Origin: Spirogloea muscicola
Lineage: Eukaryota > Streptophyta > Zygnematophyceae > Spirogloeales > Spirogloeaceae
Length of the DNA: 49,410 nt
Assembly: GCA_009602725.1 (NCBI GenBank)
Contig: WELB01000147.1
Coordinates: 162,710 to 212,119 of the forward strand
Direction of reading: 5' to 3'
How positions within the stretch are numbered: position 1 is the first letter of the stretch; each line of letters begins with the position of its first letter. Of the stretch, positions 2,009-36,400 are shown in pieces. Under the pieces are notes generated by a model that made no database searches, was not told the DNA's origin, and saw only the letters and a list, made by a program, of their open reading frames with translations. Position numbers and translations under genes: made by a program.

Positions 2009-5000
2009 AGCCGCATTCATTCTGTGAGTGGGGCTCTACGTCAACGCGCTTCCCCTCGCCGCAGCCCGGAGTACCTTCAGGCGAAGCACCTTCGCGAGGC
2101 GGTCAGGGCGCCTCGTCCCAGGATGAAGACGAGGCGGCCGCCCCCCGCCGCGCCTCCGCCTCCAGCTCCGTCGCCGCATCCCATCGTCCTCGCTACTTCC
2201 TGCCTCCACTTCGTATGCAGGCCCTCTCCGCCGCCGTCGTCGCCGCCCTTCCCTTTCCATTCGCCACCGCCTTCATCCGCATCGCCTTTACCGCCCCCCA
2301 CATCCCCGCCGCCGCCGCCACCACCGTCGGCGGAGCCTGAGGGCGTGCTGTGCCCCCGATGTCCGAACTTATGCAAGAACGCCAGAGGTCTCGCAATTCA
2401 CACGTACTCCTGCCTGAAGCGCGTCGGCCTCACCGACGCGGCGTCTGCTGCGGCAGTTGCGACTTGCGGCCCCATCGTCTCTGTCCAGGCCGTCCCTGCT
2501 CTGGAGCAAAGCGCGGAGGAGCATCTATCGCCTCCCGCCCGAGAGACGTGTCGGGCACCCGCTATATCGACTCTGCCCTTGACTGTGAAGGGCTGCCGGA
2601 GGTGAACCCACTCCCTCCATCGGATCCCATGTCTCCCGGGCATAGTGCTGCTCCTGATGTTCCTATGCGGGCGTCTCCTGCAACAGAGGGGCCGCAACCG
2701 CAGTGATCCGGGGCGCCGCCGCCCCCGCCGCCGCTGCCTCCACCAACGCCCCCTCTTCCGTCGCCGCCGCCTTCCCGGCCGCCCTTCATCCCGCCTCCCC
2801 GTCACCCCCGCCTCCGTCCTCCTCCTCGCCCCCCCCCGCCTCCACCATCCCCACCGCATCCACCATCGCCGTGTCCGTCACCTTCACCGCTGTCGCCGCC
2901 ACCCCGCCCGCCCGCGCCGCTGCTGTGCCAGTACTGCCGATGGACCTGCCACTCCCGGTCCGGCTTGACCGGCCACGAGCACGCCTGCGCGCTAAACGGC
3001 AACTGTGCAGAGCAGGCTCGGAGCGCAGCGGCCGCCAGTGGCCGCCGCGGTCAACCAGGCAGGCCAGTCCCCCCCGCGCCTTCCCCTCCCACGCCTCAAC
3101 ATTGGCAGTGGCTGGCCGGCCTCGACCTGGCAGCCATCCACCGCCAGGTGGCCCTTCCGCTCGTCCGCCATGTCCCCTGCTGGGTGCGACCGCCCATTCG
3201 TCGCGCGCTCCGCCCGGCGATGCAGAGGATTGCCAGGGACCACCCGGACGAGGCGGCTTGGAAGCAGTTTCTCCTCTTTCCCCGGCTGCTCGGGCGTGCC
3301 CCCCACGAATGCCGCTGGCAGGGCCAGCAGCCCCTTCTGGAGCGCATCCAATTGTTCGAAAGCGGACATTGGGAGGAGCTTCTTGCTCGCCATGATGCAG
3401 CAGTGGCGGCCTTGGCAGCAAACCGAGGTGACGCGCCGGTCGCACCAGACAGGGCCGCCAACGTCCGCCGGGGTCTGCTCTTTGGTCACGCGGGCGAGTT
3501 GTCCAGGGCGGTCCAGGCCCTGGACCACTCGGTGCTGGCGCCCACCAATGCTGCCACAGGGCGGCCCTGGAGTCCTTGCACCCTGCGGCTCGCACCCCCC
3601 TGCCCCCGTGGCTGGCCACCTTCGCACCGCCGGAGGAGGTGGTCCTCGAAGCCGACGCCCTGCGGAAGGCCCTGCAGAGCAGCCGCGGCGCGGCCGCTGG
3701 AGGTCCTTCCCACATGCTTACCGAGCACATCCGGGAAATCTTCCTGGAAGGCGACCCGGCCAACTTCCAGGCGCTCCACCGGGTGTACCTGCTCCACGCT
3801 CGCGACCAGTCCCGGCCAGCATTCGCGGCATCCTGTGCACCAGTACACTGCTGGCGCAGAGCAAGGCTGGTGGGGGGGTCAGGCCCATTGCCATTGGTGA
3901 GGTGCTCTACCGCCTGGTGGGGTGCGCGCTTTGGCAACAGCACGCAGGGCAGGCCCAGGCACACCTGGCGCCCCAACAGTTTGGTGCGGGGCTGCGGAGC
4001 GGCAGTGAGACGGTCGTGCACGGCGTACGGGCCGCCCTGGACCTGCATCCCGAGTGGGTGGCCATGGTGGTCGATGTCCGCAAGGCCTTCAACAGCGTTG
4101 ATCGTGATGTCATCGCGGAGGAGTTGAGAGAGGCCTTCCCCAGCCTTCTACCCTTATTCAGGCTGGGGCACGGTCAGCCATGCGAGCTGCAGAGGCGGGC
4201 GGGGGGTGGTGAGGTGGAGACCCTCCACTCCACTAGGGGCGCGCGCCAAGGGGATCCACTGGCGGGGTTTTACTATGCGTTGTCACATCACTGTGCGCTC
4301 CAGGCCATGGTCGCGGTTCACCCTGGCGTCCTCGTGCCGACATACGCTGATGACACCACGCTGGTAGGGAAGCCAGAGGACGTCGCAGCAGCCTTTGCCA
4401 CCCTCCAAGTGCAGCTGAGCGCGATCGGCCTGGACATTCTGGCGGACAGATGCAGCGCCTGGTCCCCTCTGGACCTGCCAGCCCACCTGCGCCTGCCCGT
4501 GGGCTGCCAGACGCCAGCCGGGGGCCTCACCCTCCTTGGCGTCCCCCTAGGCGCACCTGCCTTTGTGACGGAGCAGCTGCAGGCGCGGCTGCAGGAACAC
4601 CTCCGGCCGGCGGACCATCTTCACACGCTGCAGGACATGCAGCTGGCGACCACTATGCTGACCCGTTGCATCGCGCAGCGGCCACACTATCTGGCCCCCA
4701 CCATCCCTCCCTCACCGGTGGTGAAGGCAGCGTATGCAGCATTTGACTCCGGCATCCTGGGTCCGCGGCCACCCTCGCAGCACCCTGCGTTCCTCACCTC
4801 ACCAGCTGCGCTGCTGCAGGCTAGCCTGCAGCAGCGGCCGGCCGGCCGCGGCGGTTTGGGATGCCGTTCAGTTGCCCAAGCCTGCGAGGCGGCCTACATG
4901 GGCAGCTGGGCTCAGGTTGCAGCCCCCATGTGCCAGAGATCCGTCGTCCACGGCCAGCGTGCCCTGGAGCGGGCGGCAGCCGAAGTGGAGATCGGCCAGC

Positions 5001-5712
5001 TGCCCTTTCAGGTTGCCCTCCACTCTGCCCGCGACGGGCTCCTGGCAGTCCACCCCAACATGTCGGAGCAGGCCGTCCCTTTCGTCCACCTCGCTTTTTC
5101 CCCTGACCTGCGTGCCCAGGCACGCTTCGCGGCGCTGGTTGAAAAAGCGGCCTCTGACCAGGTGGTGGAGCTTCTCCCTCCGTCTGACCTTCGCGGGCAC
5201 GCCCGGCTTCTCTCAGCCTCCTCCCCTGGGGCGGCGGCGTGGTTATCGGTGCTCCCACTTTATGCGGCGCTCACCATGCCCGATGAGGTCTTCAGGACGG
5301 CGGTCCACCGGCTCTTGGGCCTCCTCCCTCCCTGCCTCGTGGGCGTTACTCAGTGCGAGTGTGGTGCCCGTCACGCCAATCCTGCTGGCTGCGCATATGC
5401 TCCATTGCGCGCACGGGGGCGAGCGGACCGGTTTCCACGATCTCCTGCGAGGTGGCATGCAGGGGGTGTTCATGGAGGCGGGCTTCAAGGTGGCTGTGGA
5501 AAACACATTAATAATGCCCATCCAGCTGGGCGCGGACTGCCAGCCCCATACTTGACGCGCCGACCTGGTCGCTATTCGGCCCGGCGGCGGTCCCCGCATC
5601 ATCGCCGATGTGGTGACAACTGACTGCATTGACTCCGCCAATCCCACCAGATCCGCGTCGTTTGCAGGGCACGCGGTCAGCCTGGCGGCCCGGGGCAAGG
5701 ATCGCAAATACA
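2009..5712 (+). pseudogene. RLE-type retrotransposon, family A, near full-length copy A2 (frameshifted)
   Basis: The most complete copy. In order: a Pro-rich N-terminal region; two zinc fingers with identical spacing C-x2-C-x12-H-x3-C at 2351-2413 and 2926-2988; a basic linker; and a reverse transcriptase with VDVRKAFNSVD (catalytic Asp codon 4073-4075), RGARQGDPLAG and YADDTT (4343-4360). The long post-RT region then runs into the CxC knuckle at about 5356. Breaks: the two fingers are in different frames; frame changes near 3560 and 3800; a short deletion near 5390 inside the knuckle; and a stop at 5553-5555 where A1 has an Arg codon just before the ADL nuclease motif. The copy ends abruptly after DRKY at about 5710, where the antisense family C element begins. 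It cannot encode a complete protein but could serve as a family reference. Confidence 0.85.
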
Positions 5713-8700
5713 TGATGGATGCTGCTGCTGATTAAAGAAGAGCGGCTGTGAAAGCCAGCCAGATGCATACAGGTATTCTTGACGGAGTCACAGGCTAGGC
5801 AGACAGGGCGCTCTTAGTACCCCCGGGTCAGCAGTAGGAAGTCAGATGAGCTGAGGGGAGGAAGAGCAACCCCGCTGCGCAAGCCAGAGGCTACTGCAAG
5901 GGCGCGACCGACGCGGCGGTGCAAAGCAAGCGCTTGGGAGCGCTGGAGGGACATAGACAATCGCATGCGGTAGCAGGACACAAGACCCAAAGGCACCGAG
6001 CCTCCAGGAAGTGCTGCACCCTATTCCCGGCGCCGCTGTTCAGCTTGCGATGCCAGCAGCGAAAGTAACGAGGACCACCGACCCCCGTAACACCCCTGGA
6101 TGTCCATGGCCAGGGTAAAAGGTATCACCTGCCGGGTGGTCCTTGTACTTGTGCAACTTCTTCTGTTCGGCCACCTTCACAGCATAGCTGGTCTCAGAAT
6201 TTATGGGGCCCTTCTTCCGGAAGCTGTCGGTGAGGACGACGTCCATGAGGAGCCGCTTGCCACCTCCCAGGGGACGCCAATCAGATCGACACGCCTCGTC
6301 CGAAGGACCCCATCGCGGAGTTGGACGGGCATCACCCCGGTGCTCTCCAATGCCACTGATGTCCCGCCTCCTTGACGATGCCATACATTGCATCTTATAG
6401 GAGGCTGTGGGAGCCCGTGCGCTCACTGCCTTTGGCACACCTGAGCATGTGTGGTCACCCATGAGCAATGCATCATGCTCAATAAGCCCACATTCACATT
6501 GGGTCACCCCTGCCAAGCACAGAGATGGTAAGCCAAGACGGCGGCGCATAGCATCGCAAAACAAAGCATTTTCCATCCGCAAGCCCGCATGCAAAGGCAA
6601 AGCGCGGAGCCACTCAGACGCTTCCAGAGACGAAACAGATAGGAGCAGAGCCTGGCCTCGAGCATCTCCTTGGAGGAGACTCCGGAGATGCTCCAGAGGT
6701 TGCTAGTCTGCAGCACGCATAAACCACGATTGAGCCTCAACATCAGAAACGTCAGCCCAGGCAGCAAAGCTAACAGGCTCATTTACCAGAAGCGGGTATT
6801 CGGCAAAGAGGTCCTGTTGGCATGCTTTGAGAGTCACTTGGAAAGGCAGACTCCCCTGAACCACGTTACTGGTGCGAATCGTCAATACACGTTGTTGCCA
6901 AAGGAGGAATAGTCCAGATATGGACGAAGCCACTGAGCCCAGCAGCCAAGGTACGCTGGTCTGCACAAGCGGACCAAGGGGCGACAACCAAGCCCACCGT
7001 GACGTATGGGCAGCGTACATTGCACCAGTGCTGCTGGGGACTGCTCTAGGGAGTGGGTGAGCAATCATGTCAGCAAGGCATCATTGGAGCTTGACATCTA
7101 TGGATGCATAGACCTCAGCCATGGTAACTGAAGGTGGGACCGTTCTTAGGAGGTGACGTGGCCGCTGTGCCACACTCCTGGTCAAAATGGCCACTGCCAA
7201 CTGAGAGTCCCCGAGGGTGGGGAGCTCTGGCAGGACCTGCATATATCCTTGGAGACGAGCAAGGACAGCACCCTTTGAGAAAGACGGGTCCCCTGTGGGC
7301 ACTCCCAAGATCCTCAAGCCACCCCTCTGGAGTCTGACAAGATGTAGGAACAAGGGAAGGAGGGAAAGAGGGATGCCATTGGGGGACCAGGCAGAGCACT
7401 TGGCAGTACTTATCCCAAGCCCGATGAGCTGGAGCTAGTGCTGAAGCGTGCCGAAAGCTTGCAGCACCTCCTGTGGGGGGCCGAGGAGCGTAGTATCATC
7501 TGCATAACTCGGGAGGAGAACGCCAGGGAGAGCGCTCGCCGTGTTGCGCAAAGCACGGTGATGCGCCAGAGCGAAGAGAAAACCACCCATGGGATCACCT
7601 TGCCATGTCCCCGTCTTTGACTGCAGAACAGCCAAAGAACTCCCGGCCCCCCACCACAATGCAGATGGCGAGCCATACATGCATCGGAAGTGAGGGAGGA
7701 GGGTGGGGTGGGAAAGTACTGCCTTAGCTCATTGGCAATAAGCTGCCGGTCCACGGAGTTGAAAGCATTACGCACGTCCACGCTCAAGGCCAGCCAATGG
7801 GGGTTGACATCCATTGCTGCTCGTACCCCGGTGCACCAGGGTCTCAGCGCCAGCACGCATCCCAGCTCCAAACTGGTGGGGATGGAAGTGCGCCTGGGCA
7901 TTGTCCTGGATCTGCATGATTAGGGTGCGCCCCACAGGGCGCGCCAGAGCCTCCCCCATCGAGATAGGACGCAGTCCGCCGTTATCCTTCTGCAAAGCAA
8001 TGAGATTACTTGTGCAAAGGACTGCGCCTACACGATGTGTGAGGTGTCCACGCGCAACATGGTGGGCGACCCTATGCAACAGGTCGAACTCCTCCAAGTC
8101 GTCCTCCCCATACAACTCCCGCAAGTGCTCAAAGAGCATGCCAGATGGACCCCTTGCGGTTGCCTTGCGGCTGCTCACAAGTGCCCGACGGAAGACAGCC
8201 GGGTCCAAGTCCACTGGTTTGAGCAGGCGTAAAGCTCTCCATCCATGTATCAAAATCACGCGGGGCCGGAGGATGGAGCTGCTGTAGTGCGGCCAGGGTT
8301 GCCGCATCATGCGGTGCTGGCGGGGAGGGCTCCAAGGCTTGGGCAGCCCTGGCAAGGTCGCCGGCTCGCCCGAATCGGATGGCACGTCGCTTGCCCGCCT
8401 CCTTGATATCAGATTCCGACGTGGTGGGCCGATAGTTGGCTTGCCCGAGTTGCGCAGCCGCTTGGAGCTTTGCAAGTAGCAGCTGCCACGCCCCCCTTCA
8501 AAAAGGTGAGGACGCAGCAGCAGCTCCTTGCGACCTGCCTTCCCCTGCGGCAGGCGACCAAGCAAAAGTCGCAGAAACAACGCAAACACAGCCCATGCAG
8601 CCTCATCCTCGCTGTCACGAGCCAGACGTGTCAGGAGGGGCCGAAGGGCTCGCCGTATGTGAGGCCAGGCCCAATACGGGATGTGTCGTAGGAGCTGCGC

Positions 8701-9655
8701 GTTGGTCGTCCGCAGGATCTCGGAGACGTCCACGCTCTCTGCCCACCGCCAGTGTTCTGCCGAAGGCCCTGGTGGTGGTGTTGGCATCGCCCCTCTTGAA
8801 GGGGCTCTGCGAGCCCGAGCGGTGGCGGATGCCTCTGCCTGCTGCGCCTGTCTGTTAGCAGAACGCACGCAGGTCCGCTCGTGCGTGCTCAGACCCGCCT
8901 TGGTGGCACAGAGCCGCCGGCAGAGCCGGCAGCGGAGCTCCACAGGCGGGCAAGAGGTTGCCTCCGCAGGGGGCCGGAGGTCCTCTTGGCCCTGCTCCCC
9001 TTCCCCAGATGCAGCTGGTACAGCGGCATCGCCAGCCACGGGCCCGTCAGCATCACTTGTGCCACTACCACCACTCACCGAACCCATGGCGACAACCACT
9101 TCCAAGCGCCGCCTGGCTCCTCCGCTGCGGCGACCTCCCCTCCAAGATGCAGGGGGGTTTGCGGAAGCCGCGTGCCCTGCAGACGCGGGAGAGGTGCACG
9201 GCGTTGGTTGTGGGTGGGGTTCGAAGCCCGTAAGTAGAGCAGCATGAGAAGCAGTGGGAGAGGATCCTGGGGGAGGGGGTCCTGTGCCCCTCTCCATGTT
9301 GTCCTCCTCCACAGCAATCTCGGATGGTGTATGGGCCGTGGTCAGGACAGCCGCCTCGTCCATCCCTGGGCCTGGTGGGGCCCAGGATGAGCGCGTAGCG
9401 CAGCAGCTTCTGGAGCTCCGGTGCACTGCTCTGGCCGCCAGTGCGCTTACCTCCCCGGCACAAGTGAGCCGAGAGTTAGAACGCAGCCGACCGAGCCAGC
9501 TTGTGAGCTGGGCAGCCGGACCCATATCCCCCGCACGAGGCTGTGCAAGCTGCCTAGGTGCTGTATCCTCCCTCGCCACCGCTGTGGCCGCCGCGGCGCA
9601 CGGCGTGGCATGAGGGACCCCGCCAGCTGGGGGCCGCGCTGCGGACGGCACTCTG
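5713..9655 (-). pseudogene. RLE-type retrotransposon, family C, near full-length copy C2 (multiple frameshifts)
   Basis: Antisense element read from about 9650 down to 5713. It has a low-complexity N-terminus, a zinc finger CRLC...H-x3-C (about 8870-8940) with the same spacing as family A, and RT pieces GGLRPISMGEA, QFGAGMRAG, VDVRNAFNSVDR, MGGFLFAL and YADDTTLLG (about 7510). Post-RT pieces run to 6700, then a CECG...H...C knuckle near 6490, KRLLMDVVLTD and a C-terminus ending SSDFLLLTRGY at 5814. The homologous blocks are scattered over all three frames, so there are at least five frameshifts. The 3' tail (GGCTGGCTTTCACAGCCGCT in sense) lies at 5735-5765. Its 3' end cuts off copy A2 and its 5' end abuts the truncated copy B1, head to head. 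Confidence 0.8.
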
Positions 9656-11510
9656 CGCTGCGAGCTCCGACTCTGCCCACCTTCGCTGATGACACCACCA
9701 TGTCGGCCCTCCGGAAGACGCGGCAGCGGCCTTCGTCACCTTCGAGCGGCAGCTGGCCACCCTCGGCCTGTCCACCCGGGCGTCGAAGTGCGCGGCTTGG
9801 TCCCCCTGCGGCCTCCCACCCACCCTGGCGCTGCCCCCCCGGATGCCTGACTCCCGCAAACGGCTTCACCCTCCTGGGGGTCCCCATCGGCGCGCCGTCG
9901 TTCGTGGAGGGGCAGCTGCGAGCCCGCCTCGAGGAGCACCTCCAGCCTGCGGCCCGGCTCCCCGAGCTGCAGGATATGCAGCTGGCTCTGGCCATGTTGA
10001 CCAAGGCCATTGCGCCACGACCCCAGTATCTGACGCGGGCCACCCCGCCGTCCCCAGGGGCGCTGGCGGCGTACGAGGGTTTCGACGCAGGCATGGTGAC
10101 GAGCCTGGCGGCCCTGGTCCGCCACCAGGGCTTCCCCCAATCGCCTGCCGCTCTTCACCAGGCGACGCTACCCCTCAGATACGGTGGTCTCGGCTTGCGC
10201 CCGTTCGTCCGTTCCTGCCGGGCAGCATACCTCGGCAGCTGGGCGCAGACAGCCGCCTCCGTGGCCCAGCGTTTCTTGGTCCACGGCCAGCGTGCGCTGG
10301 AGCAGGCGGTGGTGGAGGTAGACACGGGTGTGCTGCCTTTCCAGGCGTCGCTACGCTCCGCCCACCAGCAGCTGCTCGCGGTGCACCCAGACCTGGCGGG
10401 CCAGGCGGTCTCCTTTGCGCACCTCGCGCACACCGCCGACCTGCGCGTCCAAGCGCGCTTCGCAGCCGCAATGGACAAGGCAGCCTTCACCACCACCTTG
10501 CTCCAGCTCCCGGAGGCCGACCTGTGCGGGCGCGCGCGATTCCAGTCGGCCTCCTCCCCGGGGGCCGCGGCGTGGCTCCAGGCCCTCCCCCTCAATGAAG
10601 CCCTCACACTCCCGGATGAGGTGTTCCGCAGTGCCGTCCACCGGCTCCTGGGCCTGCCGCCGCCATGTCCCCAGGGTGTGCAACAGTGTGAATGTGGCGA
10701 GCGAGGGGCCGAGCCTGGGGAGCTGGCCGCTCATGTTCTGCGCTGTTCCCACGGCGGAGAGCAGACAGCGGCCCACGACCATCTCCGGGATGCGATGCAT
10801 GGCATCCTTGTGGAGGCTGGCTTCTCGGTGGCAGCCGAGAACTCTACCGTCATGCCGCTCCAGCAACGGGCCGACGGTCTCCACGCTCGTCGCGTGGACC
10901 TTGTGGCCACCCCATCAGCAGGCGGGCCACGTCTTCTCCTGGACGTGGTGACCACTGACTCCTATGACCGCTCACATCCAACCCAGTGTGCCACCAACGC
11001 TGGGTATGCGGTAGCCTGCGCCGCTCGGGCCAAGGAGCTTAATTACGCAGATCACCCGCGGGAAGACGAGTTCTTCCCGCTCGCCATCGATACGCACGTG
11101 GGCGCTGGGCGCTCGGTGGCTCGAGCTGCTCAACCAGCTCTCACGTCACGCCATTGTCCGCCGCTTCCATGGGGAGCCGGTGGACGCCCATGCAGCAGGG
11201 TCGCTAGCGCAGGTGTACCGCATGCGCTTGGCCGTCTCGCTGCAGAGGTCTATGGCCCGCGCGCTGCACCTGCGTGCAGGCAGAGCCCTCGCTGCTGCCT
11301 CTGGCTCTGGCCAGGGACCCGCTTCCAGGAACCCAGTCTCTCTGATCTGAGGCTGCTTAGCAGGGGTTACTGAGTGCTTCGTAGCTGCTTCGTTTCTTTT
11401 TAGTGCTTGTTGTTCTTCGTACTTCCCCTGGCCCCTTCTCGTCCTTTGTTCATTCTTTTCTGGGCTGGCTTTTTCCAGCCCCTATCCTCAAGGGGCGAGC
11501 CCTTCTCCGA
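9656..11510 (+). pseudogene. RLE-type retrotransposon, family B, copy B1, truncated inside the RT
   Basis: Starts abruptly at the RT catalytic motif FADDTT (9682) and, after a frame change near 9800, reads through the post-RT region (GFTLLGVPIGAPSF; LPLRYGGLGLRPF). The knuckle C-x-C-x12-H-x3-C lies at about 10691-10743. The nuclease core RRVDLVA...LLLDVVTTD follows at about 10890-10960. An extra base near 11098 shifts the frame at the point where copy 31564-31860 reads GARWLELLNQ; a compensating loss restores it, so the ORF still closes with SDLRLLSRGY at 11373. The 3' UTR carries the TTCATTCTTTTCTGGGCTGG block and a complete B-type tail (about 11460-11505). Truncation at a catalytic motif is chance, as expected from aborted reverse transcription. 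Confidence 0.8.
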
Positions 11511-19243: not shown

Positions 19244-22200
19244 GGCTTGGCTGGCAGTGGTGGCGCGGGGGATGAGGCGGCGCTGCTGGCCTTCAAGAAC
19301 GGCGTGCGCGACCCCCGTGGCGTCCTCGCCGGCTGGGCAGCCGGCGGCGCCGGGCCCTGTGGCAACGGCAGCGGCGGCGCCTGCGTGGGCGTCAGGTGCC
19401 GCGGCGGCCGCGTCACGGAGCTGGACCTCCAGGCGTCCGAGCTGTCGGGCGGCGTCTCCGGCGCGCTCGGCGGCCTGGCGGCACTGGAGCAGCTCAACCT
19501 CGGCGCCAATGCCCTGTCGGGGCCCATCCCACCGGAGCTTGGCGACCTGGCGGCTCTGGAGCAGCTCGTGCTGTTTAACAACAGCCTCGGCGGGGCCATC
19601 CCGCCGGTGCTGGGCCGCCTGCGGCACCTCAGCTTCGTGGGCCTCGCCTACAACACCCTCTCCGGCGCCGTGCCGGCGGCACTCTGCAATGCCTCGGCGC
19701 TGGTCCTGTTGGATCTGGGTTATAATAACCTCACTGGCAGCCTCCCACCATGCCTCACCAATGGGTCGCTGCCGACGCTTCTCTACCTCCTGCTTGGCTT
19801 GAACGACATCGGCGGCCGTGTCCCCGACACCACTGGCGTGCCGGCCCTGAGGTCGCTGGACCTCTCATTTGATGCTTTCGTGGGCCCAATCCCACAAAGC
19901 ATTTGCAAGTGCGGCGTCCTGCAGAACCTGTACCTTCACTACAACAGGCTGACCGGCAACATCCCAGCGTGCCTCGGCGGCCTGCCCTTGCTCCAGTATC
20001 TGTGGCTCAACGACAACTAGCTCACAGGCAGCATTCCGCCAACAATCGGCAATTTGTCGACGCTCACCCTCCTCAGCCTCTACAGCAACCGCCTGACTGG
20101 CAGCATTCCGCCACAGCTTGGCCAACTCTCGGCGCTGACCACCCTGCGGCTGGACAACAATCAGCTCACGGGTAGCATTCCAACAATGGGGCGCTTAATC
20201 GTCTCCAGATTATGTACCTCTTCAAGAATAAGCTCACAGGGGCGATCCCGGCAGCCCTCGGCTGCCTGGTTGCGCTGCAGCGCCTCGATGTCTCCACCAA
20301 TCGGCTCACCGGGAGCATCCCAACAAGCTTCAGTGATCTGCGGTCGTTGCAATTCCTCACCCTGGCTGCGAACGAGCTGACGGGTCCAGTACCTCGGGAG
20401 CTTGGAAAGCTGCAAAATCTGCAGGCCATAGAAGCCACCAGCAACCGACTCGGCGGGGGCATCCCGCATGAGCTCGGAGCTCTGAAGCAGTTGCGGTATC
20501 TCTCTTTCAGGAACAACGCCCTGAGCGGCTTGATCCCGCCGGAGCTTGCAAACTGCTCGCACCTTAGCTCACTGTACCTCAACAGCAACCGACTGTCTGG
20601 CATCATCCCAGCGGCGCTTGCACGCCTCCCAGTCCTGTCTGTACTTGATCTTAGCAACAACATGCTCTCTGGCAGCCTGCCCTCCGAGCTGCTGGCCGGG
20701 CCCAGCTTGGTGGTGATGGACCTCTCTGGCAACTTGCTCGCAGATGTCATCCCCGCCAGTAGTGGCCTCTACAACACGCTGTACAGCCTGAACCTGTCTG
20801 GCAATGCTTTCAGCGGGCTGCTCCCACCTGACCTCAGCAATGTTACCAGCCTGCAGTACCTCCAGCTCGACAACAATCAAGTGAGCTCCAGCCCTGCAAT
20901 GCACGTATGCCGACAAAGCTGTTGTGCTTCCTCCAGTGAGCTTCAATATCCTTGGCTTCCTTGCTAACAACACCTGAGCAAGCTCCTGTGTACCTCCCGC
21001 AGCTGTCGGGCACAGTGCCAGCAAGCCTCAGTGGCCTGGTGAATCTACGGAGCCTGTCGCTGCATGCCAACAGACTCTTTGGCCCCATCCCGGCGACTCT
21101 TGGCCAGCTGCCCATTCTGCAGGCCCTTGACCTTTCCACCAACGAGCTGGATGGGGCAATTCCTAGCGCTCTTGGCAACATCGCCACGCTGACCTACTTC
21201 AACGTCTCCTACAACAACCTCAGCGGTGCCGTGCCCACTGTGGGCGCCTTCGCGGCCTTCAAGGCCACCAGCTATGCTGGAAATGCGGGCCTGTGCGGGG
21301 GACCTCTGCTGCCATGTGCCCCCATGAAGTCCGAATCTTCAAGCATCTCCACAGGGGCAGTTGTCGGCATTGCCATTGGTGCAGCAGCAGCAGTGGCGGT
21401 GGCACTGGCCCTTGTTGTCCTCAAGCGGAAGCACGGTCGCAATGAGGCGTTTTCGTTCACACATCGCCAACATTGGTTGTGGACGCCCAGTACATTCCGG
21501 CAGTCACAGAGCAGCTCGGGTGGGCTCCATAGGAGCTCGTACAGGACAGGCTTGGTGGTCTTCCATGGCCAGGGCAAGAGCCATTTTACCATAGACGACC
21601 TTCTTACTGCCACGGACAACTTCAGTGAGGCACACCTCATTGGTTGTGGCGGGTTCCGCTCTGTGTACAAGTAGACTCTACCTCCTTATTGTGAATGTAC
21701 CCTGCAGGAAAGCTTTGAACTTTAATGAATATCATTGTCCAAGTTCCCGAGGTTGACTTTTGACTCTCTGCCTGAAGTTGAGGCAAACACCTCGTGACCC
21801 CTCATTATTGCAGGGCGATCCTGCAGTTGGGCCTGGCGCTGGCTGTCAAAAAACTGGTGACGGGTGCAGGGCAGGGGCACAAGAAATTTCTGGCGGAGGT
21901 GGAGACACTTGGCGGCATCAAACACATAAACTTGGTGTCGATGCGAGGCTACTATGCCGGCTCTGGCACATCGGCCACCGTAGAGCTCGTCATCATATAC
22001 GACTTCATGAGTGGCGGCAGCCTGGAGGACGCGCTCGGCAGAGTGACCCCCTGGCTGACCATGATGGAGCCCTGGACGTTCCGCTGCAGAGTCGCACAAG
22101 GTGCTGCTCGCGGTATCAGGTGGGCAGCTGTCTCAGGGATTTCACTTCCGACATCTACATTTTTTTTACATCAAGAAAGACTTCCCCAGCTTTCAGTATC

Positions 22201-24587: not shown

Positions 24588-24820
24588 GTTACAGGAAGAA
24601 GAAGAAGTGGCTCTCCCAATGGGGGCAAGGGCTGTGAGAAGCCAGCCCGAAAAGAATTGACAAGGTTCGAAGGGGCCAAACTACGAGCTAAGCAGCGACT
24701 GCGGGGCCTGAAGAGGCTATGGCAGAACGGGGGAGGATGGACCACTCAGTAGTTACGAGTGAGGAGCCTCACATCCGACAGACTAGCTGCCGGTAAACTA
24801 TCCCCCCCCCCCGTTACAGG
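24588..24820 (-). mobile_element. Minimal family D insertion (217 bp) with 8-bp target duplication
   Basis: Antisense insert 24596-24812 flanked by GTTACAGG at 24588-24595 and 24813-24820. In sense it holds only the last ~15 codons (AASLSDVRLLTRNY, stop), the D-type 3' UTR and the tail ending GGGAGAGCCACTTCTTCTTC. The duplication fixes the exact 3' terminus of the element and shows that truncated copies integrate as units. Confidence 0.8.
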
Positions 24821-25135: not shown

Positions 25136-25139
25136 GTGG

Positions 25140-25540
25140 AGCCCTCTATATTTCTTTTCTGGGCTGGCTTTTTCCAGCCCCTATCCTCAATGGGCGAGCC
25201 CTTCTCTCTATATTAGCGCTTCCCCTGGCCCCCGTCTCGTACTTGGTTCGTTCTTTTTTGGGCTGGCTTTTCCAGCCCCTACCCTCGGCGGAGTGCCTCT
25301 TTCCCAGCAGCGAGCTACTCAGACCTGATGTTGCTCACTCGTGGGTACTCCTTCGCATCGTCTACGTGTTTTTGCAGTGTTTCGTACTGAAGTCCTTTTT
25401 CCAGCTCCTCTTTCTTTGGCTTTGGACATTGTCCATTCTTTTTAGGGCTGGCTTTGCCAGCCCTCTGCTCTATGTGCGAGCACTTCTCTCTATCCTCAAT
25501 GGGCGAGCCCTTTCTTCTTCTATACGGGAGAGCCCCTGCG
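25140..25540 (+). mobile_element. Two family B tails in series; the second is split by a family A copy
   Basis: An intact B-type tail lies at 25158-25203 (GGGCTGGCTTTTTCCAGCCC, then TATCCTCAATGGGCGAGCCC). A second B-type UTR follows, whose tail is cut after the hairpin at 25286 and resumes at 25492 with ATCCTCAATGGGCGAGCCC. The 205 bases between (25287-25491) are a 5'-truncated family A copy: SASFPAA(S)..SDLMLLTRGY end, UTR and A-type tail. Confidence 0.75.
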
Positions 25541-26335
25541 GCAGATGTCCTACAGCTATGCAGCCAGCTGGTCGTGGCAGTGCCTAGGCCACGTGTCTAC
25601 AATGGACACGTGGACCACAAAGTGTCGCAACGTGGATCATGACGTGTCTACACGTGGCGCCTATGCGTGTACTACCTGGCACTCAATTATCGTCTGTCGT
25701 GCAAGCCGATGCATTGTCGATACTTCTACTTCTGACCGTCACCTATTAGGCTACTAATGTCGCCAAGCAACGTTACCGTTACAATGGCCAATATGAGCGA
25801 GGAATCTTTTGAGATGTGCGAAGGCGACCAAGTCTTCAATGATAAGATGAGCTGGTACAGGTACATACAGTACAGCAGTTACCCAGGGTTTTCTTCAAAG
25901 ATGTGAAGCTGCGCCTCTTAGAGTGGCCTTCTACTAGCTCAGTAGATAGAGCTGTATTGCAAAGGATAGAGGGCAACACTCTGCTTGTTGTAACCATGGC
26001 AGACATGGAGAATGTTAGACTAAAGATACCAAAGATTTTATTTGCAATTTTGCAAGCTTAACTAGACCTAGAATAGTATGGGCTTCCATGCATGCAGCAG
26101 GTATTAACAAGCCTAAGACATACATACACCAGCAAAACAACGACATCACGCAATTTTATGATAGAACAGACAGTATTGCAAGGTCTTTTGGGTGGATTGT
26201 ATTTAACACATTCAATTTTACCTACAATGCAACGAATTGTGATGGCACCCACTATGGATTGGGTGTAAACTTCCTAAAACCACAGCTGCTATTTAATCTG
26301 TTAAAAGAGCTCTTCCTTGTTCTTCCTACTTATGT
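25541..26335. other. AT-rich segment, no gene assigned; possibly organelle-derived
   Basis: From about 25760 the base composition is clearly more AT-rich than the surroundings and continues without a visible break into the mitochondrial rRNA fragment, so it may be part of the same insertion. A + strand ORF from 26088 to 26522 runs through it into the rRNA and is therefore not a real gene. At 25576-25615 there is a hairpin with CCACGTGTC/GACACGTGG arms. Confidence 0.4.
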
Positions 26336-26394
26336 ACCGCCTACGTGCCCTTTACGCCCAGTCATTCCGAACAACACTCGCCCACCTCGTTTCG

Positions 26395-26427
<33 letters not shown>

Positions 26428-26498
26428 CTTCTACGAGTCTTGTCATAATCTATTCCTCGATGAAAGAGTCTTACGAGCTATGTTGCCCTTCTTCACTC
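26336..26498 (-). rRNA. Fragment of mitochondrial small-subunit rRNA (nuclear insertion)
   Basis: The reverse complement contains the universal 530-loop region: CTAACTCCGTGCCAGCAGCC, then GCGGCG, GGAATGACTGGGCGTAAAGG and GCACGTAGGCGGT, preceded by GAAGAAGGGCAAC and AAGACTCTTTC. From memory of the family, GGCGTAAAGGGCACGTAGGC and GAAGAAGCCCCGGC are typical of plant-type mitochondrial SSU rRNA rather than chloroplast 16S. Only about 160 bases are present, so it cannot function as an rRNA gene and is best explained as a NUMT. A search against algal organelle genomes would confirm the source. Confidence 0.8.
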
Positions 26499-26569
26499 AA
26501 AAGAACACCATGTAAGTGCTAACAACACTGTTTGGCGCTCACAAACCTGACGACGAGATAATCAAAGCG

Positions 26570-26680
26570 GCTGTAAAGAAGAAGTGGTGGCTCGCCCAAT
26601 GGGGGCAAGGGTTGTGAAAAGCTAGCCCTAGAAGAATGACAAGGTGTGAAGGGGCCAGATGACGGAGGGGCCTTAAGCGC
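26570..26680 (-). repeat. Solo antisense tail, D-type
   Basis: GGCTCGCCCAATGGGGGCAA, then GGTTGTGAAAAGCTAGCCC and AGAATGACAAGG as written on +. There is no coding part. Confidence 0.6.
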
Positions 26681-26754
26681 AATGTCAGAACAAAGTTTTC
26701 CTGGGCTGTGCGCTCTTGTACCTGCTCCTGTACCTGTCCCTGTGTGTTGTACAC

Positions 26755-27035
26755 AGCGTTCTCAGAGTCTGCATTCCTCCAGTGGCCGTCTCTTTGCAGC
26801 GGTCCCTAGCTTTTGCGGTCCACTTGCGCGCAGGCCGCGCTCTGGCGGCGGCCTCCGGCTTCCGTCAGGGCGACGTCTTTCCGCCTGCTAGCTACTCAGA
26901 CTTGCATCTACTGACGAGAGGTTACTGAGAGTTCGCTTACTGCTGTCTCAGTCCTTAGCACTCCGACTCCTTCAGACCTTGTCCATTCTTTTGGGCTGGC
27001 CTCTCCCAGCCACCAGTTGATCTGGCCGCGCTTGC
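26755..27035 (+). mobile_element. Family E copy, 5'-truncated
   Basis: Encodes only VAVSLQRSLAFAVHLRAGRA, LAAASGFRQG and YSDLHLLTRGY (stop 26926-26928). The UTR follows, with TTGTCCATTCTTTTGGGCTGG, CCTCTCCCAGCCACCAG and ATCTGGCCGCGCTTGCT, which defines the E-type tail. The same tail end recurs near 12650 (-) and at 37640. Confidence 0.75.
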
Positions 27036-27224
27036 TCCAGTCGAGCTCCTCCAATGGACGTTTGCCCGATGGGTGCCCGAGGCCTCCCTTAACCAGGGGA
27101 GACTCTCAAGGCCCAATGAGGCGGGCGGGATGGTCACCCACCCCGACCCGCCGACTCACCATATTATAATATCCAACAAGAACGGGTGTAGGATGGACCA
27201 CTCAGTAGCTACGAGTATAGAAGC

Positions 27225-28075
27225 TGTAAAAGCCAGCCAGGTGTAAAAGCTACGCCGTAAAAGCCAGCCATGTGCATGCAGAGGGAATTCATGACTATAT
27301 TAGCGGAGCCACAGCTAGGCAGACAGGGCGCTCTTAGTGACCTCGTGTCAGCAGAAGGAAGTCAGATAAGCTGAGGGGAGAGAAAAACGCTTCCAGGAGA
27401 GGGCGGTGGCTGGGAGAGGCCAGCCCAGAGAAAAGAATGAACAAAGTTTGAAAGGGCCAAGGAAAATGCTAGGAGGGGAGGAAGAGCAACCCCGATGCGC
27501 AAGCCAGAGGCTGCTGCAAGGGCGCGACCGGCTTGGCGGTGCAGAGCAAGCGCTTGGGACCGCTGTAAGAACATAGACAGACGCATGCGGTAGCAGGACA
27601 CAAGACCCAAAGGCACCGAGCTTCCAAAAACTGCTGCACCCTGTTTGCGGCGCCACTGGTCAGCTTGAGAGAGGCCAGCAGCGAAAGTAACGAGGACGAG
27701 TAACGAGGATCCCCGTAACACCCGTGGATGTCCAGGCCAGGGGGTAAGAGGTATCGCCAGCCGGGTGGTCCTTGTACTAATGTAACTTCTTGTGTTCTGC
27801 CACTTTCACGGCATAGCCGGTCTCAGAAAGTATGGGGCCTCTCCTTTGTAAGGTGTCGGTAAGGACGACGTCCATGAGGAGCCGCTTGCCACCTCCGTGG
27901 GGGACGCCCACCAGATCGACACGCCTCGTCCGAGGGACCCGGTTGCGAAGTTGGACGGGCATCACCCCGGTGCTTCCCAACACCATTTGATATCCCGCCT
28001 CCTTGACGCTGCCATACATCGCGTAATGTAGGAGGTTGTGGGAGCCCGTGCGGTCACTGCCCTTAGCACATTGAT
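27225..28075 (-). mobile_element. Family C copy C3, nuclease region to 3' end, interrupted
   Basis: In sense: DRTGSHNLLHYAMYGSVKEA, RTRRVDLVGVPHGGGKRLLM and DVVLTD with SETGYAVKVAEHKKLH (28075-27777), matching C2 at about 6490-6150. The C-terminal block LGLVSCYRMRLSM..LQRSQA follows, with an LRIGVALPPL end near 27480 and the family C tail region near 27230-27300. A 92-bp insertion at 27381-27472 interrupts it. The copy begins just behind an antisense A-type tail (28080-28110). Confidence 0.7.
27381..27472 (-). mobile_element. 92-bp tail-only insertion with 8-bp target duplication
   Basis: Flanked by GAGGGGAG at 27373-27380 and 27473-27480. The sense content is part of a 3' UTR (TTTGTTCATTCTTTTCTCTG), a hairpin GGCTGGCCTCTCCCAGCC and an end CTCCTGGAAGCGTTTTTCT. 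The uninterrupted equivalent site in copy C2 is at about 5850-5862, giving a filled/empty comparison. Confidence 0.75.
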
Positions 28076-28345
28076 GAAAGAAATTGCTCGCCCATAGAAA
28101 AAGAGGGGCTTGCAGAGCCAGCCGAGAAAAGAATGGACAATATCCGAAGGCCCAAAAGGCCCCAAAACGGTGCCGAAACAGAAAAACTACAAACCAGGAC
28201 ACAAAATAATGCAGATGGATGCTCAGTATCCACGAATGAGCAACAGCAAATCAGATTAACTCGAAGCAGGAAAAGCGGCACTCAGCAGAGACCCTGAGGC
28301 AGCAGCCATAGCGCGGCCGGCGCGCGTGTGGAGCCGAGCCTGGCC
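28076..28345 (-). mobile_element. Family A copy, 5'-truncated
   Basis: In sense: a coding end with AMAAASGSLLSAAFPASS-like residues (28320-28250), LLLIRGY near 28215, the A-type UTR and the tail at 28130-28085 (TCGGCTGGCTCTGCAAGCCC, ATGGGCGAGCAA). Confidence 0.6.
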
Positions 28346-28439
28346 TCGAGCGTGTGCATAGCGAAGCTCGTGCCCAGCCGACTCCTTGGCGGCATTGCGT
28401 GCACTCACACTGCACCACACCGACGAGGCGGTAGTTCCT

Positions 28440-28680
28440 GAGAGCTTCGTAGCTGCGTAGTTTCTTTTGTGCTTCTTTTTCTTAGTGCTTCCCCTGGGCC
28501 CCTTCTCGTCCTTTGTTCATTCTATTTTGGGCTGGCTTTTTCCAGCCCCTATCCTCAATTCTTTCCAGCCCCTTGTTAATTCTTTTCGGGCTGGCTTCTC
28601 ACAGCCCTTGCCCCCATCGGGAGAGCCACTTCTATCCTCAAGGGGGCGAGCCCTTCTTCTTTGTAACCCCGTGTCAGTAG
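28440..28680 (+). mobile_element. Family B 3' UTR/tail split by a nested tail
   Basis: B-type UTR (CTTCCCCTGGGCCCCTTCTC, TTTGTTCATTCTATTTTGGG), hairpin CTGGCTTTTTCCAGCC and CCTATCCTCAA to 28558. It is interrupted by 28559-28633 and resumes at 28634 with ATCCTCAAGGGGGCGAGCCC. Confidence 0.75.
28559..28633 (+). mobile_element. 75-bp D-type tail insertion with 8-bp target duplication
   Basis: TTAATTCTTTTCGGGCTGG, a TCTCA loop, CAGCCCTTGCCCCCAT and CGGGAGAGCCACTTCT, flanked by ATCCTCAA at 28551-28558 and 28634-28641. It contains no coding sequence. Confidence 0.8.
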
Positions 28681-31563: not shown

Positions 31564-31985
31564 AGCAGGTGCTTGCCATCGATTCGCATGGGGCGCCGGG
31601 CGCTCGGTGGCTCGAGCTGCTCAACCAGCTCTCACGCCACGCCATTGTCCGCCGCTTCCATAGGGAGCCGGTGAACTCCCACGCAGCAGGGTCGCTAGCG
31701 CAGGTGTACCGCATGCGCTTGGCCGTCTTGCTGCAGAGGTCTATGGCCCGCACGCTGCACCTGCGTGCAGGCAGAGCCCTCGCTGCTGCCTCTGGCTCTG
31801 GCCAAGGGACCCGCTTCCAGGAACCCAGTCTCTCTGACCTGAGGCTGCTTAGCAGGGGTTACTGAGTGCTTCGTAGCTGCTTCGTTTCTTTTTTGTGCTT
31901 GTTGTTCTTCGTACTTCCCCTGGCCCCTTCTCGTCCTTTTTTGGGCTGGCTCTTTCCAGCCCCTATCCTCAATGGGCGAGCCCTT
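31564..31985 (+). mobile_element. Family B copy, 5'-truncated
   Basis: Encodes HGAPGARWLELLNQLSRHAI, VRRF, SHAAGSLAQVYRMRLAV, RAGRALAAASGSGQG and SDLRLLSRGY with its stop at 31863-31865, nearly identical to the 3' end of B1. The UTR has TGCTTGTTGTTCTTCGTAC and a B-type tail at 31943-31985 with the ATCCTCAA site uninterrupted. Confidence 0.75.
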
Positions 31986-32820
31986 TGTTCGTGGAGGGAG
32001 GTGGGCCCCTCCCTCCCGTTGGGCGGCGGCACGCGCATCATCGCTGATGTGTTCACCTCTGATGTGGTCGACCGCTCCAACCGGGTGCTCTCTGCCCCGT
32101 GGGCTAGCCACGCTGCGGCGAAGGCCGCTCGCAGCAAGGCGACCAAAAATGCCGACCACTCGGCTGCAGATGAGTTCGTACCCCTGGCCGTGGACGTGCA
32201 CGGGGCTCTCGGGTCCCAGTGGCTCGACCTGCTGGCCAGGCTTGCGCGGCGCGCTGTGTCCCGCAAGCTCGGTGAGCCGGCTGACTTTAACGCCGCTGGC
32301 TCGTGGGCGATTGTCCGTCTCCCTTCAGCGGTCCATGGCCCACGCCTTGCATCTGCGTGCGGGCCGTGCTCTCGCTGCGGCCTCCGGCTTTCGTCAGGGG
32401 GATAGTTTTCCGGCAGCTAGTCTGTCGGATGTGAGGCTCCTCACTCGTAACCACTGAGTGGTCTATCCTCCCCCGTTCTGACATAGCATCTTCAGGCCCC
32501 TTCGTAGCTGCTGAGTGCTTTTCAGGCTTTTGTAACTACTAAGTGGTCCATCCTCCCCCGTTCTGCCATAGCCTCTTCAGGCCCCGCAGTCGCTGCTTAG
32601 CTCGTAGTTTGGCCCCTTCGAACCTTGTCAATTCTTTTCGGGCTGGCTTCTCACAGCCCTTGCCCCCATTGGGAGAGCCACTTCTTCTTTTTAGGCCCCT
32701 CCATCATTTGGCCCCTTCGACCCTTTTGTCAGTTCTCTTTCGGGCTGGCTGTTCACAGCCCTTGCCCCCATCGGGAGTACCACTTCTCCCGTTGGCGCCG
32801 CGCCCACGCGCCCCCCCGCC
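31986..32820 (+). mobile_element. Family D copy, 5'-truncated behind a B tail, followed by two tails
   Basis: Starts in the nuclease core directly after the B tail: GGGTRIIADVFTSDVVDRSN, then AADEFVPLAVDVHGALGSQW, LDLLARLARRAVSRK. After a deletion around 32300 come HALHLRAGRALAAASGFRQG and SDVRLLTRNH (stop 32455-32457). The UTR contains a partial direct duplication (TGGTC.ATCCTCCCCCGTTCTG at 32459 and 32543). Two D-type tails follow at 32638-32690 and 32738-32795. Confidence 0.75.
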
Positions 32821-33411: not shown

Positions 33412-36400
33412 GCGGATGAGGCGGCGCTGCTGGCCTTCAAGGACGGCGTGCGCGACCCCCATGGCGTCCTCGCCGGCTGGGTAGCCGGCGGCGCTGGGCC
33501 CTGCGGCAAAGGCAACATCTCCTGGGTGGGCGTCAGGTGCAGCGGCGGCCGCGTCACGGTGCTGGACCTCGAGGCGTTCGGGCTGTCCGGCGGCGTCTCC
33601 GGCGCGCTCGGCGGCCTGGCGGCATTGGAGCAGCTCAACCTCGGCGGCAATGCCCTGTCGGGGCCCATCCCGCCGTCGCTCGGCGACCTGGCGGCGTTGG
33701 AGCAGCTCGTGCTGTACAACAACAGCCTCAGCGGCGCCATCCCGGCTTCGCTGGGCCGCCTGCGGCGCCTCAACCTCCTGGGCCTTGCCTACAACTCCCT
33801 CTCCGGCGCCGTGCCGGCGGCAGTCTGCACTGCCTCGGCCATGGTAATTCTGGATGTGAGCTACAACCGCCTCACTGGTAGCCTCCCGCCATGCCTCACC
33901 AATGGGTCGCTGCCGACGCTCTTCTTCCTCCTGCTAAGCTATAACAACCTCGGCGGCCGCGTCCTCGACACCACTGGCGTGCCAGCCCTGAGGCAGCTGG
34001 ACATCTCATACAATTCCTTGGTGGGCCCAATCCCACACAGCATTTGCAAGTGCAGCCTCCTGCAGGACCTGAGCCTTCTCAATAACAGGCTGACCGGCAG
34101 CATCCCAGCATGCCTCGGCGGCCTGCCCTTGCTCCGGACACTGTGGCTCAGCGGCAATCGGCTCACAGGCAGCATCCCGCCGACGTTCGGAAATTTGTCG
34201 ATGCTCACATTGCTCGCCCTTCATAGCAACCACCTGACGGGCAACATTCCGCCAGAGCTCGGCCAGCTCTCGGCGATGACCACCCTGCGGCTGTACAATA
34301 ACCGGCTCACAGGCAGCATCCCAGCAAGCCTTGGGGCGCTTCACCATCTCCAGATCATGTACCTCTTCAATAATGACCTCACAGGGGCGATCCCGGCAGC
34401 ACTTGGCAGCCTGGTCGCGCTGCAGCGCCTCGATGTCTCCACCAATCGGCTCACTAAGAGCATCCCAGCAAGCTTCAGTGGTCTGCGGTCGCTGCAAGAC
34501 CTCATCCTGGCTGGAAATGAGCTGACGGGTCCAATACCTTGGGAGCTTGGAACACTGCACAATCTGCAGTCCATAGAAGCCACTGGCAACCAATTTGGGG
34601 GGGGCATCCCGCGTGAGCTCGGAGCTCTGCAGCAGTTGCAGTATCTCTCCTTCAGCAACAACAACCTGAGCGGCCTGATCCCGCCGGAGCTTGCCAACTG
34701 CTCGCGCCTCACCTCACTGTACCTCAGCAACAACCAACTGTCTGGCACCATCCCAGCTGTGCTTGCACGCCTCCCAATTCTGTCTGTACTTGATCTCAGC
34801 AACAACACGCTCTCTGGCAGCCTGCCCTCCGAGCTGCTGGCCGGGCCCAGCCTGGTGGTGCTGGACCTCTCTGGCAACTTGCTCGGAGGCATCATCCCCG
34901 CCGGTAGTGGCCTTTACAGCACGTTGTACAGCCTGAACCTGTCTGGCAATGCTTTCAGCGGGCTGCTCCCGGCCGACCTCAGCAATATCACCAGCCTGCA
35001 GTACCTCCAGCTCGACAACAATCAAGTGAGCTCCAGCCCTGCAATGCACGTATGCCCATAAAGCTGTTGTGCTGCCTCCAGTGAGCTTCAATGTCCTCGG
35101 CTCTCGCTAATAATTTCCTTAAAGTATGAACAAGAGGGCTCAGCAAGCTCCTGTGTACCTCCCGCAGCTGTCGGGCACAGTGCCAGCAAGCCTTAGTGGC
35201 CTGGTGAATTTGCGGAGCCTGTCGCTGCATGCCAACAGATTTTTTGGCCCCATCCCGGCGACTCTTGGCCAGCTGCCCATTCTGCAGGCCCTTGACCTTT
35301 CCACCAACGAGCTGGATGGGGCAATTCCTAGCGCTCTTGGCAACATCGCCACGCTGACCTACTTCAACGTCTCCTACAACAACCTCAGCGGTGCCGTGCC
35401 CACTGTGGGCGCCTTCGCGGCCTTCAAGGCCACCAGCTATGCTGGAAATGCGGGCCTGTGCGGGGAACCTCTGCTGCCATGTGCCCCCATGAAGTCCGAA
35501 TCTTCAAGCATCTCCACAGGGGCAGTTGTCGGCATTGCCATTGGTGCAGCAGCAGCTGTGGCGGTGGCACTGGCCCTTGTTGTCCTCAAGCGAAAGCACG
35601 GTCGCAATGAGGCGTTTTCGTTCACACATCTCCAAGATTGGTTGTGGACGTCTGGTACATTCCGGAAGTCTGACGGCAGCTCGGGCGGGCTCCATGGGAG
35701 CTCATACAGGACAGGCCTGGTGCTCTTCCTTGGTCAGGGCAAAAGCAATTTCACCATGGACGACCTCCTTACTGCCACAGACAACTTCAGTGAGGCACAC
35801 CTTATTGGTCGTGGCGGGTTCGGCTCCGTGTACAAGTAAGCTCTTATCTTGGAGATCCTCATTGTGAATGTACACTGCAGGAAGGCTTTGAGCTTTAGGG
35901 GATGTCCTCATCCAAGTTCCTGAGGTTGACATTTGACTCTCTGCCTGAAGTTGAGGCAAACACCTCGTGACAATTCATCATTGCAGGGCGATCCTGCCGT
36001 CGGGCCTGGCGCTGGCTATTAAAAAGCTGGTGACGGGCGCAGGGCAGGGGCACAAGGAGTTTCTGGCGGAGGTGGAGACGCTTGGCGGCATCAAACACAT
36101 AAACTTGGTGTCGCTGCGAGGCTACTATGCCAGCTCTGGCACATCGGCCACCGTTGAGCTTCTGATCATATATGACTTCATGAGTGGCGGCAGCCTGGAG
36201 GATGCGCTCGGCAGAGTGACCCCCTGGCGGACCATGATGGAGCCCTGGACGTTCCGCTGCAGAGTCGCACTAGGTGCTGCTCGCGGTATCAGGTGGGCAG
36301 CTGTTCCAGGGATGTCACTTCCGACATCTACTACATCTAATTCACTGTCAAGAAAAACACTCCCCCAGCTTTAGTATCTCTGCACCTCCCTACTGCAGGC

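Follow-up and report, generated by a model that had tools for sequence, protein, structure and literature searches.

Several of four related repeat families of Spirogloea muscicola, here named A, B, C and D and together called the clan, have inserted at the same nucleotide in the tail of family B. The point, CCCCT/ATCCTCAA, was recognized in a stretch of 49,410 nucleotides (assembly GCA_009602725.1, contig WELB01000147.1, positions 162,710 to 212,119 of the forward strand; this whole stretch is called the window, and coordinates refer to it), and it is a real and sharp hot spot genome-wide. Insertion sites of the clan also have a real sequence preference. We favor, with a probability of roughly 0.62, a reading in which the clan consists of long interspersed nuclear elements (LINEs) that insert by target priming with a probable restriction-like endonuclease, and that prefer short sites resembling their own 3' ends, thereby giving rise to nested stacks.

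Consensus sequences of the four families have a related coding end and a hairpin tail, the tails ending in the hairpin and pyrimidines (CTTCT, CTTTCTTCTT and similar). A reverse transcriptase domain (PF00078, E 3.6e-11) was detected in a clan open reading frame (ORF; window 2996-5620), to which (2996-5623) a portion of the B ORF shows 59% identity over about 300 amino acids. Because the 3' end is constant, being common to 20 B loci fetched from the genome, and the lengths of copies with detected ends vary, the B copies are, judging from their sequences, 5'-truncated LINE copies. The genome assembly (153 Mb, 471 contigs) contains 3337 exact copies of CCAGCCCCTATCCTCAA and 3174 of TCAATGGGCGAGCC.

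Insertions at one nucleotide of the B tail

Reading the window directly, we found B tails interrupted twice at CCCCT/ATCCTCAA, once by a family A copy (25492) and once by a D tail (28634), which bears out the claim of an earlier sequence-only reading that two insertions share one nucleotide. In event 1, the B hairpin (25260-25278) is followed by CCCCTACCCTC up to 25286, the insert occupies 25287-25491, and ATCCTCAATGGGCGAGCCC starts at 25492; the insert, 205 nt long, belongs to family A, about 190-200 nt of it aligning with the best other A copies at 84-86% identity. In event 2, the B hairpin (28529-28548), CCCCT and ATCCTCAA (28551-28558) precede an insert at 28559-28633, behind which ATCCTCAA is repeated (28634-28641). 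Positions 13-75 of this 75-bp insert are D tail at 97% identity. The perfect 8-bp duplication reported earlier for event 2 is present, and it extends to 10 bp if the preceding CT is counted, which the D tail could equally supply; the duplication at event 1 is imperfect (CTACCCTC versus CTATCCTC). The host B parts of the two events (25205-25271 and 28474-28540) are 85% identical. Since both the inserts and the host B copies differ, the events are independent, and a single copied event is ruled out. The parts in question are as follows.

25151-25205, + strand: short 5'-truncated B copy (B1) with an uninterrupted tail, boundaries set by eye
25213-25286, + strand: second B copy (B2), left part of the event 1 host tail, ending in CCCCTACCCTC; the tail resumes at 25492
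25287-25491, + strand: family A insert, 205 bp, ending in TTCTCTCT
25492-25517, + strand: right part of the host B2 tail, beginning with ATCCTCAATGGGCGAGCCC
28434-28558, + strand: left part of the event 2 host B copy, including its hairpin and the first ATCCTCAA
28559-28633, + strand: D-tail insert, 75 bp
28634-28661, + strand: right part of the event 2 host B tail, with the second copy of the duplication (28634-28641) and then GGGGGCGAGCCC
31858-31992, + strand: uninterrupted B 3' untranslated region (UTR) and tail, the query of the first genome search
11462-11503, + strand: uninterrupted B tail behind the B reading frame

Some letters of the earlier description needed amending. The shared point stood, but the sequence to the right of 28641 is GGGGGCGAGCCC, which has one G more than the proposed (T/G)GGGCGAGCCC. 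Intact B tails do exist in the window, with ATCCTCAA beginning at 25183 and 31965 instead of at 25189 and 31968, and further tails of the intact type were located at 11484 (+) and 31318 (−). In the D insert, the opening 12 nt (28559-28570, TTCTTTCCAGCC) had no match in D copies and resemble the right arm of the B hairpin, possibly a trace of 5'-end template switching. For the B 3' end, a fold with an outer stem that places GGGCGAG around the hairpin is possible (z −1.8 for 31920-31990 and −3.0 for 11440-11505); the best fold of 25139-25206 is a different one.

The mapping of B-tail insertion points was then extended to the genome with a junction search in which TTCT, a common element end, had to lie 0-12 bases ahead of TCAATGGGCGAGCC, thus covering a 13-nt stretch of the B tail. 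This form of search slightly favors points closer to TCAA and so works against CCCCT/ATCCTCAA. It gave 161 matches, of which the 100 listed correspond to 80 distinct places, all of them fetched and read. Identity of the 60 nt upstream marked three junctions as repeats; L047 and L083 were kept since their further flanks differ, and L050 was dropped since its upstream tails match those of L039. In another search, rows with TTCTCAATGGGC were judged by their letters, with flanks unread, to be intact tails bearing point mutations and were set aside. A recognizable clan tail end stood right at the junction in 41 distinct junctions among the matches listed. The excess at CCCCT/ATCCTCAA was pronounced, with 21 of the 41 at this point, (CT)/ATCC, while 16 were at CTCAA/TCAA (among them L042, whose letters are ATGCTCAA and which may instead represent the first point), 4 at the TCC between, and none at any other position. 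Insertion points were thus not evenly spread over the stretch: if all 13 positions were equally likely, one position would receive at least 21 of the 41 with p=2.4e-13. The 13-nt stretch contains no CT steps other than the two main sites. Over all its junction points the 39 inserts typed by script were A (23), D (12), B (3) and C (1).

Could such junctions be products not of insertion but of tail-to-tail recombination, gene conversion or template switching? All tails have short blocks in common, 38 of the 77 remaining junction rows had no clan tail end that was recognized (they comprised point mutants, small duplications, variant tails, other families and gaps, and were excluded from the 41), and for most of the 41 the left flank was not found within the approximately 1 kb fetched. 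These observations would fit recombination. A left flank in the B tail together with a duplication around the insert, as in the window, was nevertheless found at L030, L031, L034, L041, L045, L049 and L052, the duplication being ATCCTCAAT at L030 and L034, and we consider this explanation improbable. The L034 locus is moreover recursive: a D tail lies inside a B copy that itself sits at CCCCT/ATCCTCAA of another B tail. A comparable stack was read by eye at 25144-25535 of the window, where B1 follows GGAGCC, B2 stands directly behind it, and the A copy lies within the B2 tail. B1 is flanked on both sides by CTCTATA (25144-25150, after GGAGCC, and 25206-25212), a duplication also recovered in the duplication scan described below, and TCTATA precedes B2 and recurs behind its tail (by eye). 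The head-to-tail stacking that had been proposed for these elements is therefore present, with insertion regenerating the site.

At the second B site (CCTC/AATGGG side; for example L073, L077 and L083) the duplication is short or absent. At L053 a reverse D copy seems to abut the other side of the first site (ATCCTCAAT then AGAAGAAGTGG), and the opposite strand may thus be used too.

Other sites, sequence preference and nesting

A stretch of the B 3' UTR with 677 exact copies served as a control. It gave 22 matches, from which 18 loci were read (L185 and L198 were counted once, and L196 was typed by eye). Five distinct clan-tailed events fell at TG/CTTAGC and three to four elsewhere. The occupancy of this UTR site (5 of 677 copies, five being few) was indistinguishable from that of CCCCT/ATCCTCAA (about 34 of 3174, scaled from the 100 of 161 rows listed; p=0.53). 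Insertions in the D tail, sorted by the letters of the matches with flanks fetched for few of them, occupied 69 distinct places, with 21 at (C)CTTGCC, 22 at CATTGGG and 26 at others; the two D-tail sites fall at places homologous to the B-tail sites. The hot spots in the UTR and the D tail rule out that the B-tail point is the only one hit. A junction test with ACTTCTATCCTCAA returned 2 matches only and could not tell tail from non-tail sites.

Target duplications were collected from all sequence fetched, which contained 316 tail instances, 278 of them with a 5' boundary. At a cut-off of 7 nt, these 278 tails yielded 47 distinct duplications, with a mode of 8 nt and 41 of the 47 measuring 7-10 nt; a decoy scan yielded 7. 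No clan match spanned the insertion point in 26 of the 47. Removal of seven typed tail motifs left 39 duplications, 14 of which still have a clan match spanning the point. CT starts 20 of the 39, compared to 10-17% when the procedure was simulated with random targets (p about 1e-6), and G or C occupies position −1 in 32. The CT start was also observed in 16 of the 25 duplications in which no clan match spans the point, and in 4 of the 7 that lie more than 70 bp from any clan match. When a matrix was built from the 39 duplications, only 2 of 105,843 random positions scored as high as the element's own end, GAGCC/CTTCT; the D-tail site ranked in the top 0.3% and CCCCT/ATCCTCAA in the top 1.2-1.7%.

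According to the sequence-only reading, the tails of the clan itself would be the target of a sequence-specific endonuclease. A sequence preference is indeed real, but specificity for tails was not supported. If the enzyme recognized the tails themselves (hairpin, ATCCTCAA and GGGCGAG) and built arrays in this way, a sharp hot spot common to families A-D and D-tail sites at homologous places would be expected, as was found; the failure of the short-motif matrix at the second B site and the ratio of forward to reverse inserts among raw matches (161 versus 43, mutants included, the 43 being counted only and unread) also speak for it. We nonetheless regard tail recognition as unlikely, given the statistically indistinguishable occupancy of the UTR site, the existence of several hot spots, and the 26 of 47 duplications that no clan match spans.

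Copies of the clan also nest in general. For 60 of the first 68 listed B tails (the 8 skipped being mostly second members of close pairs), clan DNA was present in the following 100 bp in 35 cases, versus 61 of 600 random 100-mers. The 100 listed B tails cluster, with 17 neighbor pairs within 1 kb versus 2.6 expected. A random sample of 53 kb contained 17 clan tails per 4508 G/C-CT sites, and CCCCT/ATCCTCAA, occupied at about 1%, exceeds the upper average of such sites roughly 3-fold. An excess of this size needs no tail-specific enzyme because the general nesting excess covers it. Clustering of B copies and clan DNA behind 35 of 60 B tails would likewise suit near-random insertion without enzyme preference, in which tail hits reflect the survival of copies and their clustering in gene-poor, repeat-rich regions. 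Clustering cannot, however, yield 21 of 41 junctions at one nucleotide or CT at the start of 20 of 39 duplications. Near-random insertion is therefore contradicted at the nucleotide level and, as an account of the hot spot, highly improbable, although the several-fold nesting excess may still stem from it. Together, a target that matches the element's own 3' end and a general nesting bias suggest that much of the effect can be covered without a dedicated tail-recognizing enzyme.

A proposed mechanism and a candidate endonuclease

In the reading that we favor, families A to D are related LINE copies, mostly 5'-truncated, that end in a hairpin and a pyrimidine tail. Their insertion would proceed through target-primed reverse transcription and produce short target duplications, with a bias toward sites in which G or C is followed by CT. 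The nicked strand would provide a primer ending in AG, able to pair with CU near the 3' end of the element RNA. Such sites occur within the clan's own ends, namely CAGCCC/CTATCC in B, CAGCC/CTTGCC in D and the terminus GAGCC/CTTCT, and the tail would be hit repeatedly at one nucleotide because the 3' ends and tails of the clan contain preferred sites. Every hit would then supply a new site, so that nested stacks accumulate, and the several-fold general tendency to land in or beside clan DNA would contribute as well. The data do not separate recognition by the enzyme from priming microhomology with the element 3' end. A stronger form of this proposal, which we put forward only tentatively and hold to be doubtful, is that the integration target of the clan is its own 3' end, a site of approximately AGCC/CTTY that the terminus GAGCC/CTTCT matches almost perfectly, with each insertion recreating the site for every relative. 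If true, this would be a self-addressing LINE system in which several families build head-to-tail nests without an external target.

The coding parts in the window relevant to the endonuclease are the following.

9391-11373, + strand: C-terminal part of the B-family ORF2, with the reverse transcriptase motif FADD, a C-C-H-C cluster and an endonuclease-like C-terminus (motifs by eye)
10678-11109, + strand: candidate restriction-like endonuclease domain of B
3-1157, + strand: C-terminal ORF2 of a copy with an A tail behind it at 1260; 54% identity to B
2996-5623, + strand: clan ORF2 with the PF00078 reverse transcriptase domain

The C-termini of B and A have in common the C-C-H-C cluster and RRxDLV...DVVTTD (by eye). 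Two low-confidence models of the candidate domain (mean predicted local distance difference test scores of 50 and 57) consist of a helix, strands, a helix and a strand in this order, the first strand of the second model being split in two; this order is also the one given for the R2 endonuclease in the relevant part of a published study (PMC3636483). These features point to a clan endonuclease that is probably of the restriction-like (R2-group) kind. A scan of clan ORFs, which have incomplete N-termini, did not detect the APE endonuclease family.

Several results weigh against the favored reading. The matrix offers no explanation for the second B site, which received 16 of the 41 events and is equaled or exceeded in score by 19-21% of random positions, and it performs poorly at the UTR site (8%) and at the second D-tail site (11%); for these reasons the motif is incomplete. 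The preference in plain single-copy DNA rests on few cases because only 7 of the 39 sites lack a clan match within 70 bp, a nearness partly exaggerated by the presence of the same loci in the library. Around 15% of the duplications may be due to chance (7 decoys versus 47), and the CT that opens a duplication can also derive from the element tail, so that the nick is not exactly placeable. With respect to the candidate domain, Foldseek gave nothing at E 0.001 or better, its top rows being TDP2, a different nuclease fold, and searches of the Protein Data Bank, including phmmer, returned no sequence match. A second-look structural alignment was weak and placed nucleases among unrelated folds (CinB, Z 7.5; EcoRV, Z about 5; R2 residues 895-1100, Z 4.5).

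Related systems and further features of the window

The behavior of the clan is a variant of an already known behavior, LINE nesting, with the second B hot spot left unexplained by the motif. In some algae, clusters of nested LINEs have been proposed as components of centromeres, and it is at issue how copies find each other; the clan allows this question to be posed at the level of a single nucleotide. Our literature searches turned up no description of the clan, a statement that extends to those searches and not to print at large.

Zepp and Zepp-like LINEs of Chlorella, Coccomyxa and Chlamydomonas insert into existing copies and form arrays mostly of 5'-truncated 3' ends, as described in sections of PMC8226300. 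The clan too inserts into existing copies, as seen from the 41 listed junctions in B tails and from the clan DNA that follows B tails. Zepp is entered as an L1-clade element with (A)n tails in a portion of PMC3747384, whereas clan tails consist of a hairpin and CTT-type pyrimidines and have no poly(A) tail. In Coccomyxa, Zepp forms one cluster per chromosome according to the part of PMC8226300 on that genome; the clan instead shows small nests along the two contigs listed, and its C-terminus looks restriction-like.

LINEs of the R2 group (R2, R4, NeSL/Utopia, HERO and CRE) resemble the clan in that a C-C-H-C cluster and a PD-(D/E)XK-like domain, in the clan a candidate domain, lie C-terminal to the reverse transcriptase. 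Passages of two studies describe the R2 group as often having a target preference (PMC4640811; PMC3636483), and, in the former, four of the five restriction-like LINE clades are mostly target-specific and recognizable duplications are rare at Utopia junctions. The clan differs in its loose preference and in duplications that are mostly 7-10 bp. In Giardia, the telomeric LINEs GilM and GilT form head-to-tail subtelomeric arrays and have a restriction-like endonuclease. The likeness to these elements lies in the head-to-tail arrays, and the difference is that nests of the clan mix several families. RandI/Dualen of Chlamydomonas are algal LINEs with short-repeat tails (in excerpts of PMC3747384), and Dualen combines a restriction-like domain with an APE endonuclease (in the section of PMC4640811 on this element), which sets it apart from the clan ORFs as far as their incomplete N-termini allow.

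Additional features were observed in the window. A further clan member, E, lies at 7768-9735 on the − strand and at about 5761, with an N-terminal cysteine/histidine cluster and reverse transcriptase motifs in broken frames (motifs by eye); its tail differs (CTGGCTGGCTTTCACAGCCGCTC) and also occurs on the + strand, near 1974 and 31051. Two oppositely oriented D copies (24596-24756 and 32532-32692) are 99% complementary over 161 nt, and these young copies flank the region of the two insertion events. A 120-nt match to bacterial-type small-subunit ribosomal RNA (RF00177, 66.3 bits, model positions 402-535), probably of organellar origin, lies at 26380-26499 on the − strand in a repeat-rich stretch. 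Long leucine-rich-repeat reading frames are located at 20212-20964 and 33448-35058.

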